From contig JAFIGS010000035.1 of assembly GCA_017849615.1 (NCBI GenBank), positions 1-64,000 of the forward strand: 64,000 nucleotides of DNA, given 5' to 3'. Of the stretch, positions 2,876 to 60,109 are shown piece by piece. The stretch is from Pseudolabrys sp. (GTDB lineage: Bacteria > Pseudomonadota > Alphaproteobacteria > Rhizobiales > Xanthobacteraceae). The position numbers were made by a program, and so were the translations under genes. Each line of letters opens with the position of its first letter. Within the stretch, counting starts at the first letter, position 1. A model generated the notes under the pieces. That model was not told the DNA's origin. It made no database searches and saw only the letters and a list, made by a program, of their open reading frames with translations.

Positions 2876-3447
2876 GGCACCGGCGCGGTGAGCAGCGCCC
2901 AGGTGAACAGCACGGCCACCGCGACCACTGCCCCGTACACGAACATGCGCAGGCCGCGCAGGCGGCCGCGGCGCTGTTCGTCGTCGATGGTCTTGAGCGT
3001 CGCCGCCTGACCGAACGGCACATCGTCGGTGAGCGCGCGCTCGCGCTCCAGGAGACGCCGCGCGACGTAGCGCGTCACCGCCGACACCATCTCCGCCAGG
3101 TCGTAGCTTTCGGCCAGCACGGCGCGGCCGTAGCGGGTATCCTGGACGAAACGGTACTGGCGCTTGTCGCGGCCCATTTCGACATGGGCGACGACGTCGA
3201 CCCAGAGCCGCGGCGTCTCGCCCTGGCTCACACCGCGGTCGAACAGTTCGACGTCTTTCGGAATCTCGGCGAACAGCGGGTCGAGCGCTTCGTTCAGCAG
3301 CTCCAGCCGCGCCACCTCGGCATCGCGCAAATCGACAATGACGGCGGAACGCTCGGCAGCCTCGATGCGCGCCTCGCGCATGGCCTCCTTGAGCGGCGTC
3401 GGCGGAACCGTCGGCTCGGACTCAGGCTTTTTGCGGCGTCCCCACAT
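2872..3447 (-). CDS. Conserved hypothetical protein with C-terminal membrane anchor
   Basis: 191 residues. The N-terminus is charged and Pro-rich (WGRRKKPE), followed by a long, probably helical soluble domain rich in Glu/Arg. There is one clear hydrophobic segment at about 170-188 (GAVVAVAVLFTWALL) just before the C-terminus, so it looks like a tail-anchored cytosolic protein. I recognise no catalytic motif and no named family. It is convergent with the metallophosphoesterase, overlapping it by 4 bp. Confidence 0.7.
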   Translation of the reverse strand: MWGRRKKPESEPTVPPTPLKEAMREARIEAAERSAVIVDLRDAEVARLELLNEALDPLFAEIPKDVELFDRGVSQGETPRLWVDVVAHVEMGRDKRQYRFVQDTRYGRAVLAESYDLAEMVSAVTRYVARRLLERERALTDDVPFGQAATLKTIDDEQRRGRLRGLRMFVYGAVVAVAVLFTWALLTAPVP

Positions 3448-21575: not shown

Positions 21576-22393
21576 TTCGGTTTGGTCGCCGTGATGTAGA
21601 GATTCCAGCCCATAGTGCGGGCCAGGATGTTGCGGTTGGCGGCCGGCAGTATCGGCCGCAGGATGCGATCCAGGCCCGGCACCAGCAGGAACTGCCGCCA
21701 GCTCAGTTGATTGAGCTCGAAGCGGTGATCGGTGAACCGGTCGAGCAGCCGACGGGCTTCTTCCCGGCTGTAAACCAGCGCCAGCGGGCAGTTCGGGCCG
21801 TCGTTCATATTCAGCGCCTCCGCCTGGCTCTTGCCGCGGTAACGCGGGTCTATCAGTCGCTTGAGGCGCAGGACGACGTGATACTTCCAGCTACCCCTGT
21901 AGTAGAGCATCAGGATAATTCGACCGCCCGGCTTCAGCACGCGATGCATCTCCGCGATCATCGGCCGCGGATCCTCGATGTGATGCAGCACGCCCATCGA
22001 GCAGGCGATATCGAAGCTCGCATCGTCGAAGGGCAGACGTTCCCCGTCGGTGACCCGGAAGTCACCGGCGAGTCCCGCCTGCTCGAACCTCGCCTTGCAT
22101 AGATCGACCGCCGTCTGCGTCAGATCGACTCCGGCAACGGAGGCGCCGAAGCGCGCATATTGCTTCAGTACATAACCGTTGCCACAGCCGACATCGAGCA
22201 CGCGTAGGCCGGCCGACGTCGAGTAGCCGTGGATGTAGTCGGAGAACGCGAAGGGCTCGCAGTCGTCGGCCTCGCGCAGTGCATCGAACGCCTGGAAGAA
22301 CGCGGGCGTACCGGGCTCTGCCGCAATGCCTTCGGCGGCGACCGGGTTGTCTTCCCAGAACGCTTTGACCTCGGCATTGCTGACGCCGTTCAT
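21572..22393 (-). CDS. Class I SAM-dependent methyltransferase
   Basis: 273-residue methyltransferase of the UbiE/Methyltransf_11 type. SAM motif I is VLDVGCGNGYVLKQY (about 67-81), followed by GVDLTQTAV, and the post-motif region SMGVLHHIEDPRPMIAEM and LKPGGRIILMLYY. The C-terminal third is specific and probably binds the sugar or glycan. The start is ATG 22393, overlapping the upstream SDR stop as ATGA; an ORF extension to 22510 lies wholly in that gene. It is one of seven methyltransferases in the locus. Confidence 0.85.
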   Translation of the reverse strand: MNGVSNAEVKAFWEDNPVAAEGIAAEPGTPAFFQAFDALREADDCEPFAFSDYIHGYSTSAGLRVLDVGCGNGYVLKQYARFGASVAGVDLTQTAVDLCKARFEQAGLAGDFRVTDGERLPFDDASFDIACSMGVLHHIEDPRPMIAEMHRVLKPGGRIILMLYYRGSWKYHVVLRLKRLIDPRYRGKSQAEALNMNDGPNCPLALVYSREEARRLLDRFTDHRFELNQLSWRQFLLVPGLDRILRPILPAANRNILARTMGWNLYITATKPK

Positions 22394-57318: not shown

Positions 57319-58260
57319 TCAGGCGACGTAGCGGCGAACCAGGGGATGCTGATCGCCGGCGCGCAGTTCGATGGGTTTGGTGCGGAAACCGGAAACGATG
57401 TCGATCGAGGGCCGCACTTCGTCAATACCAAAGCCCTTGCCGGCCAGTATCTCTTCGTAGCTGCGCGTGTGCAGGTCGGTGAAGCCTTCCGAGAACTCGA
57501 CTTCTTCACCGTCGATGGTGATCGAGCGATAGGTCGTCTTCTGGCCCCGCACGTTGTCCGGCAGATCGTTGCGATCGACCGACAGGAACCAGCGGATCTG
57601 CGCGCGGCCGCATTCGAGGTAACCGGCGGCGCGCTCGTCGTCGTGCAGATGCACGACGTTCTGAGTTACCGGTCCGAAGATATAGGACAGCATGTCGAAA
57701 AAATGGACGCCGATATTCGTCGCGACGCCGCCGGATTTCGATTCATCGCCTTTCCAGGAGGCGTGATACCAGCGGCCGCGCGACGTGATGTAGGTCAGAT
57801 CGACCACGAAGGTCTTGTTCGGCGAAGCATCGACCTTGCGCTTGAGCTCCTGGATCGCCGGATGCAGGCGAAGCTGCAGGATGGTCGATATCTTGCGGCC
57901 TGTTTCTTTCTCGATCTCGGCGAGGCCGTCGATATTCCACGGGTTCAGCACCAGCGGCTTCTCGCAAATGACGTCCGCGTCGGAGCGCAGCGCGAAACGG
58001 CAGTGCGCGTCGTGCAGATAGTTCGGCGAGCAGATGGAAACGTAATCGACCTTCTGGCCGCGGCGGCGCATCTTGTCGATGTGCCGGTCGAAACGTTCGA
58101 ATTCCACGAAGAAGTAGGCGTCGGGAAAATGGCTATCGATGATGCCGACGGAGTCCTTCGGATCGAAGGCCACGGCAAGATCGCCGCCGACCGCCTTAAT
58201 GGCCTTCATGTGGCGCGGCGCGATGTAGCCACCAACGCCGATCAACGCAAAAGTCGTCAC
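57319..58260 (-). CDS. UDP-N-acetylglucosaminuronate 3-dehydrogenase-like (WlbA/WbpB)
   Basis: 313-residue GFO/IDH/MocA-fold oxidoreductase: LIGVGGYIAPRHMKAIK at the start, VSICSPNYLHDAH, CEKPLVLNPWN with the catalytic Lys, and GGVATNIGVHFFDML with the substrate His/Asp. It oxidises C3 of UDP-GlcNAcA for the aminotransferase. The start is GTG 58260 with GGGGAAG just upstream. It is the first sugar gene of the operon, right after a 303-bp leader with regulatory features. Confidence 0.92.
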   Translation of the reverse strand: MTTFALIGVGGYIAPRHMKAIKAVGGDLAVAFDPKDSVGIIDSHFPDAYFFVEFERFDRHIDKMRRRGQKVDYVSICSPNYLHDAHCRFALRSDADVICEKPLVLNPWNIDGLAEIEKETGRKISTILQLRLHPAIQELKRKVDASPNKTFVVDLTYITSRGRWYHASWKGDESKSGGVATNIGVHFFDMLSYIFGPVTQNVVHLHDDERAAGYLECGRAQIRWFLSVDRNDLPDNVRGQKTTYRSITIDGEEVEFSEGFTDLHTRSYEEILAGKGFGIDEVRPSIDIVSGFRTKPIELRAGDQHPLVRRYVA

Positions 58261-58280
58261 GTGCTTCCCCGCCGTTTAGC

Positions 58281-58292
58281 CATGCTACCGCA
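58281..58292 (-). promoter_or_regulatory. ops-like element in the leader of the polysaccharide operon
   Basis: The leftward strand reads TGCGGTAGCATG, which agrees with the enterobacterial ops element GGCGGTAGCGTG at 10 of 12 positions, including the core GCGGTAG. ops pauses RNA polymerase and recruits RfaH. It lies 20 nt before the wlbA start and four bases downstream of a hairpin. The neighbouring gene encodes an RfaH-like NusG paralogue, which makes the resemblance worth attention; recognition of this sequence by that protein is not shown. Confidence 0.4.
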
Positions 58293-58295
58293 GTT

Positions 58296-58316
58296 CGGGT
58301 GAAATGCTGTCACCCG
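58296..58316 (-). promoter_or_regulatory. Leader hairpin directly upstream of the ops-like element
   Basis: CGGGTGA (58296-58302) and TCACCCG (58310-58316) form a perfect 7-bp stem with a 7-nt loop. No U-tract follows in the leftward transcript, so it is more like a pause or protein-binding hairpin than an intrinsic terminator. Confidence 0.5.
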
Positions 58317-58478
58317 AGCCTGCACTTCAACCGCGTCGGTACCGCGCCAGTTGGCGCCGCCAAAACCCCGCGAAAAATCAAAATCCCGGAGATCGCCCAG
58401 TCGCCGCTGCTCCTCGCCAACGTCCTGCGTTGTATGGAGAAAATGGCCCGTCAGCTTTCCCGGAACCCGACCTCGAGG

Positions 58479-58495
58479 CGTTCATGACATGAACG
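58479..58495. promoter_or_regulatory. Palindromic operator, copy 1 (leader of sugar genes)
   Basis: CGTTCATGACATGAACG is a perfect 17-bp palindrome around a central A. The 22-bp block that contains it matches copy 2 (59728-59742) at 20 positions. It lies 70 bp past the RfaH-like gene and 219 bp before wlbA. Probably bound by the dimeric winged-helix regulator encoded at 59070. Confidence 0.6.
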
Positions 58496-58563
58496 TCACC
58501 CCTTAGCAAGCCGAAGCCGGAACTTTGCGATCTCCTGACTTTCCCTTCTTGGAGGAGGCGTTA

Positions 58564-59073
58564 TTAGACGGCAGCAACCGACAATTCGTCGATCATGACG
58601 CGCACTTTGCGTCCCAAAAGATCGAGCAGGATCGAAACTCTTTCCTGATCGTTGCCTTCAAACATACCGAAGCAGTTCGAGAACACGCCGTCGATGACCC
58701 GCACCTTGTCGCCGGGTGCGAAGCGAGGCTTATCATCCATCTGGACGAAGCCCCGCTCATCCTCGCGCTGCCTGAGCGCCGCGATGATCTGCGGGGGGAC
58801 CGCTGCGAGCGCTTCGCCGTTGCGGACGAGACCGACGACTCCGACGGTCGACTGGATCGCGCGCCAGCGCTGGGTCGCGACATCGATGGCGACGAACAGA
58901 TAGCGCGGAAACAGCGGCGCAGCGACGGTCTCGATACGTCGCGCGTGACGGCGCCGTTTGAGATAACGCGGAAAATACGTCTTGAAGCCTTGCCGCTCGA
59001 GATGGGCGGCGGCCTTGTTCTCACCGTGAGCATGCGCGAGCACGGCGTACCATTGCGGCGCGGTTTCCGTCAT
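58564..59073 (-). CDS. RfaH-like specialised NusG paralogue (transcription antiterminator)
   Basis: 169-residue protein with a NusG N-terminal (NGN) domain at about 7-100 (QWYAVLAHAHGENKAAAHL, PLFPRYLFVAID, STVGVVGLVRNG) and a KOW-containing C-terminal domain (FAPGDKVRVIDGVFSNCFG at about 117-135). Specialised NusG paralogues (RfaH, UpxY, LoaP) bind elongating RNA polymerase at an operon leader and suppress pausing and Rho termination. Its position just before a 41-kb glycan operon fits. Its start overlaps the regulator stop by ATGA. Confidence 0.88.
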   Translation of the reverse strand: MTETAPQWYAVLAHAHGENKAAAHLERQGFKTYFPRYLKRRRHARRIETVAAPLFPRYLFVAIDVATQRWRAIQSTVGVVGLVRNGEALAAVPPQIIAALRQREDERGFVQMDDKPRFAPGDKVRVIDGVFSNCFGMFEGNDQERVSILLDLLGRKVRVMIDELSVAAV

Positions 59074-59708
59074 GACACCGGCCTCCGCGCCTGCTTTTCA
59101 AGACCGAGCAGCCGCGGCGCCAGCACGCGCTTGGCGCCAAAACGTTCGACTGCCGCAATGTACGTTTCATGCGCCGACCGCAGAGCGGTGATGACAACGC
59201 CGTCGAATTCCGCCGCCACACCATCGAAGTCCGCGAACACCATCAGTCCGACAAAACTCTCCGCCGATGCCTGACCATCAACAACTCCGACAACCGAAAC
59301 GTCGCTTTCAAGCGAGGCGATCCGGGCGATTTCCGCGAGATCGGAGATGCCAGCGAGCACAACGCTGTTCCAGCCGCGCTCGGTTGCGATGGCAAAGACG
59401 TCGGCGCAGTCGGTGCGCGCCTGACGAAAGAACGAGAACGAATGCGTGAAGTACTCGACAGTCAGGCGCGACTTCTCGGCGAAGCCCTGCGGCGTCAGGT
59501 AATAAGCATAACGCCGCGTCGGTGCCTCGCCGACCTTGACGAGACCCTTCTTGATGCAGCGTTTGACGTAAGCATTGACCAAGCCCAAAGCGATGCCGAG
59601 TTCGGTAGCAAGGCGCCGCTGCGTCTGACCGCCGTCCCTCTCGACGGACTGGAGCAGACTTAAAACTATCCGGTTTTCCGCTTCATCGTTTTGGGCAATT
59701 CTCGACAT
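59070..59708 (-). CDS. Winged-helix regulator fused to a C-terminal Rossmann-like domain
   Basis: About 212 residues. Residues 5-75 form a winged helix (RIVLSLLQSVERDGGQT, ELGIALGLVNAYVKRCIKKG, YYLTPQGFAEKSRL), as in MarR-type regulators of exopolysaccharide loci. After a linker, a second domain (about 105-205) alternates strand and helix: NSVVLAGISDLAEIARIA, VSVVGVVDG and FDGVVITALRS. This looks like the nucleotide-sugar-binding N-domain of PglD-type proteins or a CoA-binding fold. It may sense a sugar nucleotide. GTG 59723 is an alternative start, but it touches the operator. Confidence 0.75.
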   Translation of the reverse strand: MSRIAQNDEAENRIVLSLLQSVERDGGQTQRRLATELGIALGLVNAYVKRCIKKGLVKVGEAPTRRYAYYLTPQGFAEKSRLTVEYFTHSFSFFRQARTDCADVFAIATERGWNSVVLAGISDLAEIARIASLESDVSVVGVVDGQASAESFVGLMVFADFDGVAAEFDGVVITALRSAHETYIAAVERFGAKRVLAPRLLGLEKQARRPVS

Positions 59709-59727
59709 CAGTCGTTTGTTCACCGGC

Positions 59728-59742
59728 GTTCATGAGATGAAC
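59728..59742. promoter_or_regulatory. Palindromic operator, copy 2 (regulator's own promoter)
   Basis: GTTCATGAGATGAAC: 6-bp arms GTTCAT/ATGAAC around GAG. Flanks GGC before and TCA after also match copy 1. It lies between the candidate -10 box and the start codon of the regulator, so binding would block initiation or early elongation: probable autorepression. Confidence 0.6.
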
Positions 59743-59743
59743 A

Positions 59744-59773
59744 TCAATACCCCGTTTCGACCCTGAAGGTCAA
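59744..59773 (-). promoter_or_regulatory. Candidate promoter of the regulator-RfaH unit
   Basis: On the leftward strand TTGACC (59773-59768) and TATTGA (59749-59744) are 18 bp apart, and the transcript would start within the operator. The -10 box matches consensus only in part. Confidence 0.35.
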
Positions 59774-59859
59774 TCATCATCAGCAACCCTTGCGGGAATT
59801 CGTCCAGGACAACCTGTTATGTTGCAGCGACGCACAGTGCAAGCTTAGGCCATACAATC

Positions 59860-59880
59860 GCGCTTTATGTCAAAAAGCGC
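59860..59880. other. Small dyad upstream of the regulator promoter
   Basis: GCGCTTT (59860-59866) and AAAGCGC (59874-59880) form a 7-bp stem with a 7-nt loop. The loop and right arm carry TTGACA on the leftward strand. It could be an activator site or a second promoter's -35 region. Confidence 0.3.
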
Positions 59881-60032
59881 TGAATAATTGCGAATTGGAT
59901 AGGCCGTCGCGTAAGGCACCGATACGTGTCGTGTGTCGCGCCTCACATTCAGGTTGGCGACCCGTGCGAAGCCGGTATGTCAGACGTTTGCGCGAACCCG
60001 ACCGGCGTCGGCATCAGTAGTTTTCAGAGATT

Positions 60033-60109
60033 TGGTAGCTGGGGAGGGATTTGAACCCCCGACCTACGGATTATGATTCCGCCGCTCTAACCAACTGAGC
60101 TACCCAGCC
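60033..60109 (-). tRNA. tRNA-Met (anticodon CAT)
   Basis: A full 77-nt cloverleaf on the leftward strand. The acceptor stem GGCTGGG pairs with CCCAGCT, the D-arm is AGCTCAGTTGGTTAGAGC, the anticodon stem GCGGA/TCCGT closes the loop ATCATAA with anticodon CAT, and the T-arm is GGGGGTTCAAATCCCTC. CCA is encoded. G1 pairs as a wobble and the features are those of elongator rather than initiator Met; the tRNA-Ile2 (lysidine) type is less likely. It lies next to the glycan locus, a common integration point, though no integrase was seen. Confidence 0.95.

Follow-up and report, generated by a model that had tools for sequence, protein, structure and literature searches.

According to the excerpts of PMC7593976 used here, recruitment is known in detail only for RfaH of Escherichia coli, a protein in which E48, I93 and F130 are named for the autoinhibited alpha-helical KOW domain and in which E48 is needed for autoinhibition, its replacement permitting NusG-like recruitment. 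In the same excerpts, an association with an HTH transcriptional regulator is reported for the genes of RfaH cluster CL4 (Wang et al. 2020, PMC7593976), so that the pairing of a regulator gene with an RfaH gene may already have been noted. UpxY, LoaP and TaA are described, in the excerpts of PMC7819879 and PMC7593976, as specialised NusG paralogues encoded with the long operon that they serve. The locus described here resembles each of these systems in part: its RfaH-like protein falls in the same protein family as E. coli RfaH and, like UpxY, LoaP and TaA, is a specialised NusG paralogue whose gene accompanies the long operon that it would serve, and the winged-helix domain of the neighbouring regulator, which sits in a polysaccharide locus, matches the MarR_EPS model (TIGR04176). 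The window, by which we mean the whole 64,000-nt stretch of DNA that was analysed, was compared with related genomes, and the reading that we consider probable, drawn from sequence and comparison, is a two-level switch for a long polysaccharide cluster, in which the regulator would act at initiation and the RfaH-like protein at elongation.

Layout of the locus and its two palindromes

On the minus strand, the features follow one another in this order:
59742 to 59747, minus strand: −35-like TTGATG, with a one-base overlap with operator 1 (sequence)
59728 to 59742, no strand assigned: operator 1, palindrome in the regulator's promoter, GTTCATCTCATGAAC on the coding strand
59070 to 59708, minus strand: regulator, 212 aa, winged helix (HTH_24 / MarR_EPS-like) plus Rossmann-like C-terminal domain (profile matches, predicted structure)
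58564 to 59073, minus strand: RfaH-like specialised NusG paralogue, 169 aa (profile matches, alignment)
58494 to 58499, minus strand: −35-like GTGACG, with a one-base overlap with operator 2 (sequence)
58480 to 58494, no strand assigned: operator 2, palindrome in the sugar-gene leader, GTTCATGTCATGAAC on the coding strand
58281 to 58301, minus strand: predicted ops-type RfaH loading element, CACCCG-AAC-TGCGGTAGC-ATG, 20 bp before the first sugar gene (sequence, conservation)
57319 to 58260, minus strand: first gene of the run, Gfo/Idh/MocA-type oxidoreductase (profile match)
16883 to 58260, minus strand: run of 37 predicted same-strand genes, presumed RfaH target, about 41 kb (codon-usage gene caller)

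An earlier note on this DNA had placed one palindrome at the start of the regulator gene and a near-identical one in the leader of the sugar genes, and the coordinates bear this out: GTTCATGACATGAAC occupies 58480-58494, GTTCATGAGATGAAC occupies 59728-59742, and the flanked 22-mers GGCGTTCATGACATGAACGTCA and GGCGTTCATGAGATGAACATCA do agree at 20 of 22 bases. The half-site that it had reported near 22389 is present as ccGTTCATGAcctcg, unpaired, at the edge of a predicted gene. Operator 1 lies 19 bp from the regulator's ATG (59708, minus strand; an alternative start, GTG at 59723, is possible upstream), and operator 2 lies 69 bp from the stop codon of the RfaH-like gene and 219 bp from the first sugar gene. 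The ops element, which was absent from the earlier account, sits between operator 2 and the sugar genes and would explain the RfaH partner beside the regulator.

The 37-gene run was called with a simple purpose-written codon-usage gene caller and is interrupted by a single 814-bp gap, where the caller placed a weak frame on the plus strand. Family libraries were applied to its first five genes, which match an oxidoreductase, a hexapeptide transferase, two DegT-type aminotransferases and an NAD-dependent epimerase. The sugar locus starts next to a tRNA gene, tRNA-Met (anticodon cat) at 60033-60109 on the minus strand, just upstream of the regulator; such genes are frequent sites of integrated islands.

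In the whole genome (4,396,131 bases), exact GTTCATGANATGAAC occurs in two copies only, operators 1 and 2, and the next-best match carries one mismatch and lies within a predicted gene; the many random copies against which the earlier note had suggested a motif scan did not turn up. This one-mismatch palindrome, at C13:86010, was rejected as a further operator, being inside a gene. Within the window there are 41 perfect 6-3-6 palindromes, and GTTCAT is the sole arm found twice. When up to three mismatches to GTTCATGANATGAAC were allowed, the window showed no enrichment (5 matches against 3.3 expected), four of the five being operators 1 and 2 counted on both strands; the signal is therefore the two near-perfect sites. 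A search for sigma-70-like promoters over 58200-60000 found none, and a −10 element is recognisable at neither window promoter.

The palindrome in the regulator promoters of relatives

Of 120 related genomes, that of the window among them, 35 have a homologue of the regulator, and we examined 37 loci, namely those of the 35 genomes, with G045 represented twice, plus one from a Rhodospirillales record (L033). The window's genome has one copy of the regulator, and a protein search of the genome_contigs collection found one locus. The promoter zone scored covers positions −150 to +75 relative to the first possible start, and expected counts come from stretches drawn at random from these loci. When no more than one mismatch was allowed, GTTCAYNNNRTGAAC was found in the regulator promoter at 29 of 37 loci against 0.11 expected, and exactly at 27 against 0.06 expected. 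The eight loci lacking it are L063-L069, seven that are divergent or distant, and that of G010, whose regulator is 66% identical and whose promoter holds a site with two mismatches at best. At 27 of the 29 site-bearing loci a site is immediately preceded by TTGA[CT], or by TTGAC lying one base more upstream; the palindrome there accordingly occupies the spacer of a promoter of the sigma-70 type. Judged by sequence and comparison, the conservation of the palindrome, its promoter position and its tie to the regulator within the family are features of these loci. Looser palindromes of the form GTTCA-N5-TGAAC occur in the regulator regions of L060, L065 and L069 (GTTCAAGCTTTGAAC, GTTCAATGATTGAAC and GTTCAACAGTTGAAC), which suggests that this form is the operator core.

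Since the palindrome fills the space between −35 and −10 of the promoter shared by the regulator and RfaH genes in the relatives, binding there should block RNA polymerase and result in autorepression. Alternatively, the regulator could activate, or do both, with an upstream site activating and the core site repressing at high dose. A second copy with at most two mismatches is present nearby at 23 of 37 loci and is spaced by 26-29 bp in 15 of these, which would put the upstream centre near −51, a usual position of an activator (with the start point inferred), and although the window has a single palindrome in its regulator promoter, its other site, 1.25 kb off, could act by looping. Nearly all site-bearing loci, however, have one site directly behind the −35 element, the usual place for repression, and we regard an activating or dual role as possible but less likely. 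The most likely reading is that both promoters are repressed by occupancy of the spacer and that a ligand relieves the repression.

Of the 72 genomes of family f1, 29 have the regulator, and the exact palindrome is present in 26 of these and in 7 of the 43 that lack it (Fisher p = 3.5e-10, an overstatement, since the genomes are related and not independent). The seven regulator-less genomes hold nine palindromes, six inside predicted genes and three intergenic, and no sugar genes were recognised among the listed neighbours of these three. In the other families of the order (48 genomes) no association was seen, the palindrome occurring in 2 of the 6 genomes that have a homologue of the regulator and in 13 of the 42 that do not, and none of the six regulator promoters there has a site at one mismatch or fewer. 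The expectation of the earlier note that orthologous loci should carry the palindrome thus holds in the family and does not hold for the six homologues in other families. This lack of association elsewhere, together with the fact that a palindrome near a regulator gene could serve a different factor, is what would favour the idea that another transcription factor binds the palindromes and that the neighbouring regulator is merely carried along. We judge this unlikely, because within the family the palindrome is nearly confined to genomes with the regulator because its exact copies number one to three in a genome, and because it sits at the promoter of the regulator itself, at that of a relocated RfaH gene and before sugar-type genes.

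Loci at which the regulator and the RfaH-like gene are separated bear on which of the two the operator accompanies. We examined 14 RfaH-like loci without an adjacent regulator, weaker or partial matches (e.g., G106, G107 and G115) being outside the set, and 13 of them have no palindrome within one mismatch. The exception is G006, in which TTGAC and a one-mismatch copy stand before a relocated RfaH gene. Conversely, G063 has the regulator and two exact operators and is without an RfaH-like gene, its sole match to the RfaH-like protein being 25% identical and presumably the housekeeping NusG. Within the family, then, the operator by its distribution follows the regulator rather than RfaH. In G006 some 8 kb separate the RfaH gene from the regulator (L047, G006:C9, about 2984-3255; L113, 4412-4995); the gene has a TTGAC-palindrome promoter of its own, and beside the regulator there are still an ops element and a short remnant resembling RfaH (query residues 28-64).

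Both palindromes in the window are inverted repeats beside an RfaH-like gene, and they could be imagined as signals for that protein, in the form of an RNA or non-template-DNA hairpin of the LoaP or ops type. We consider this very improbable, given that the symmetric arms around a free 3-base centre are as in a dimer site, that the sites overlap the −35 region and so lie ahead of any transcript start, that the unaccompanied RfaH-like loci and, conversely, G063 show the distribution described above, and that RfaH has a separate ops element. A role as RNA or RfaH signals was rejected on the promoter position and on the loci where regulator and RfaH separate. As for the proposal of the earlier note that the regulator acts on both candidate operators, the cross-genome comparison supports it.

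The ops element, its pairing with operators and the RfaH-like protein

Among the 29 loci that could be judged, the window included, 23 have TGCGGTAGC on the coding strand within 300 nt past the RfaH stop codon, against 0.14 expected. The distance from the stop to the ops core is 47-90 nt in 21 of the 23; it is 244 nt in G116 and 271 nt in the window, where operator 2 lies between the two and accounts for the greater length. Of the six loci without a core after RfaH, L041 has a core with one mismatch, L051 and L056 have ops behind a secondary operator instead, and no ops core was found at L059, L065 or L066. The aligned copies of the core number 24 (those 23 and L047), and 23 of them have CACC[CG]G three bases before it; the exception, L062, has one C more. 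An ops core with a CACC block nearby was also seen at L102, L106 and L115, that is, at 3 of 13 RfaH loci lacking both regulator and palindrome. A search of the 120 genomes with one mismatch allowed did not discriminate: 94 of 120 genomes gave a match, and hits were more numerous in the reversed control. The ops signal lies in the position after the RfaH gene. Sequence comparison across the relatives is the basis on which the ops element and its location, as well as the ops pairing of some secondary operators, are put forward here.

Exact palindromes number 79 in the 120 genomes, and the 70 examined in context comprise 40 in regulator promoters and 30 elsewhere, the latter divided into 4 paired with ops, 15 inside predicted genes and 11 intergenic. 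The four pairs, in which an exact palindrome is followed by GCGGTAGC within 30-212 nt, are the window's own operator 2 (G000) and sites in G021, G052 and G067; all are in regulator-bearing genomes and ahead of sugar-like genes (called by eye from translations at G052 and G067), and the G052 pair is on a different contig from the regulator. The other 26 of 30 have no ops within 30-212 nt, among them an intergenic site of G021 (C2:67469) inside a sugar cluster. With the loose core GTTCA-N5-TGAAC followed by ops, 6 pairs were obtained in the 120 genomes against 3 in a reversed-pattern control; all six are in genomes with a regulator match, and they comprise the four exact pairs, G116 and a weak one in G054. 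Because the reversed control gives three, the loose pairs alone prove little, and the argument rests on the four exact pairs. A wide regulon was rejected, as weak copies are not enriched in the window and most palindromes outside promoters are without ops.

These pairs bear on whether operator 2 has any function, since an operator at the junction of RfaH and sugar genes is not general among the relatives, most of which have none between RfaH and ops, and the −10 of the promoter at 58480 is unrecognisable, as might be expected of a chance copy or a decayed duplicate. Such an origin is nevertheless improbable: operator 2 is nearly identical to operator 1 over the flanked 22-mer, the 4.4-Mb genome has no exact copy besides these two, the same order of operator, ops and gene recurs at secondary places in three relatives, and G116 has a looser palindrome between RfaH and ops in the same arrangement as the window.

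The RfaH-like protein scored 120.2 bits with TIGR01955 (RfaH), below the cutoff of 144.5, and this was still its top model (nusG model, 57.7); its PDB match had an E value of 1.7e-13, and structure prediction was unsuccessful (pLDDT 35). In an alignment of 31 RfaH-like sequences, the window's included, against E. coli RfaH, the residues of the ops T6 pocket are largely kept (H20 in 23/31, R23 in 28/31 and Q24 in 31/31), and T72, G74 and F56 are kept in all 31. K10 and R73, on which ops contact by E. coli RfaH likewise depends, are each retained in 4 of 31, and E48 is replaced in every sequence. The window's protein keeps I93 and F130 and reads L-L-G at the position of the Rho-binding loop, which is I-F-G in NusG and L-I-N in E. 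coli RfaH (excerpts of PMC7593976). By these residues, the family may be of the E48-less sort with NusG-like recruitment, and yet its ops element is strongly conserved. An RfaH-like gene 81% identical to that of the window and carrying an internal stop lies at about 5574-6079 of L110 (G004:C1:3606000-3616000), in a genome with neither a regulator match nor any exact palindrome, and is perhaps a decaying remnant of the cassette.

A proposed switch and its relation to known systems

The regulator matches HTH_24 over residues 12-58 (42 bits, above the cutoff of 21.9), as did 26 of 26 aligned regulator sequences at E up to 1, and it matches MarR_2 with 25.6 bits, below the cutoff of 27. With MarR_EPS (NCBIfam TIGR04176) the match covers residues 12-94 (E 6.4e-17) and its 61.5 bits are below the cutoff of 88; by its profile scores the regulator is a relative of this family and not a member. 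Its structure, predicted from an alignment of two sequences, is alpha/beta and Rossmann-like over residues 101-200 (block-mean pLDDT 77-93), with pLDDT below 50 over residues 1-90. A Foldseek search with this model gave no match at E up to 0.001; the best, weak matches were WbaP (E 2.4e-3, TM-score 0.36), an uncharacterised protein and then UDP-glucose 6-dehydrogenases. A PDB profile search with the regulator found nothing below E 0.3. The Foldseek matches being weak, a nucleotide-sugar ligand is a guess.

On this basis we infer that the winged-helix regulator (59070-59708) binds the palindrome as a dimer and represses rather than activates at initiation. The palindrome at 58480 would place a second promoter, directly before the sugar genes, under the same control, and transcripts from either promoter would then pass the ops element. 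At elongation, the RfaH-like protein would load on RNA polymerase at ops (58281-58301) and sustain it through the approximately 41 kb of the run. The Rossmann-like C-terminal domain of the regulator probably senses a nucleotide or nucleotide sugar, by which repression would be relieved or enforced. With ops linked to a defined promoter operator, a single small locus may govern whether a transcript of about 41 kb is begun and whether it is completed, and the two motifs should allow one to predict which surface-polysaccharide clusters in these bacteria are switched in this way.

A bolder reading, which we hold tentatively, is that the operator, regulator, RfaH-like gene and ops form a self-contained cassette that moves between polysaccharide clusters, in which a nucleotide-sugar-sensing regulator gates initiation and an E48-less RfaH with an extended ops (CACCCG) gates elongation. 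If this were true, sequence-specific loading at ops would be possible without autoinhibition of the E. coli type, an intermediate in RfaH evolution, and the recruitment of one class of in-operon NusG paralogues would be explained. The element described here is a candidate for the site that recruits RfaH-like proteins whose genes adjoin the operons they target, a point left open in PMC7593976.

In a literature check limited to titles and the openings of abstracts, we found no description of this operator and no ops behind in-operon RfaH genes in these bacteria, and a search on the MarR_EPS family name returned, by title, other subjects only. Compared with MarR_EPS, the window's regulator is twice the length of the 105-position model and has the additional Rossmann-like C-terminal domain. 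For CL4, in which an HTH regulator is also associated, neither an operator nor an ops element is given in the excerpts of PMC7593976. In contrast to UpxY, LoaP and TaA, the gene here is preceded by a DNA-binding regulator and followed by an ops element as the presumed loading site. The window's gene differs from that of E. coli RfaH in its setting, with a regulator ahead of it and the operon presumed to be its target immediately after it, and its protein family differs in the loss of E48 and in the mostly replaced K10 and R73. The E. coli ops12 oligonucleotide GGCGGTAGCGTG (as given in the excerpts of PMC5995543) and the window's TGCGGTAGCATG agree at 10 of 12 bases, with bases 2 to 9 identical; C3, T6 and G8, which matter in E. 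coli according to the same excerpts, are all kept, and the conserved CACCCG block of the window (58296-58301) lies outside that oligonucleotide. The parts of this locus belong to known kinds, and what looks new is their combination and the extended ops.
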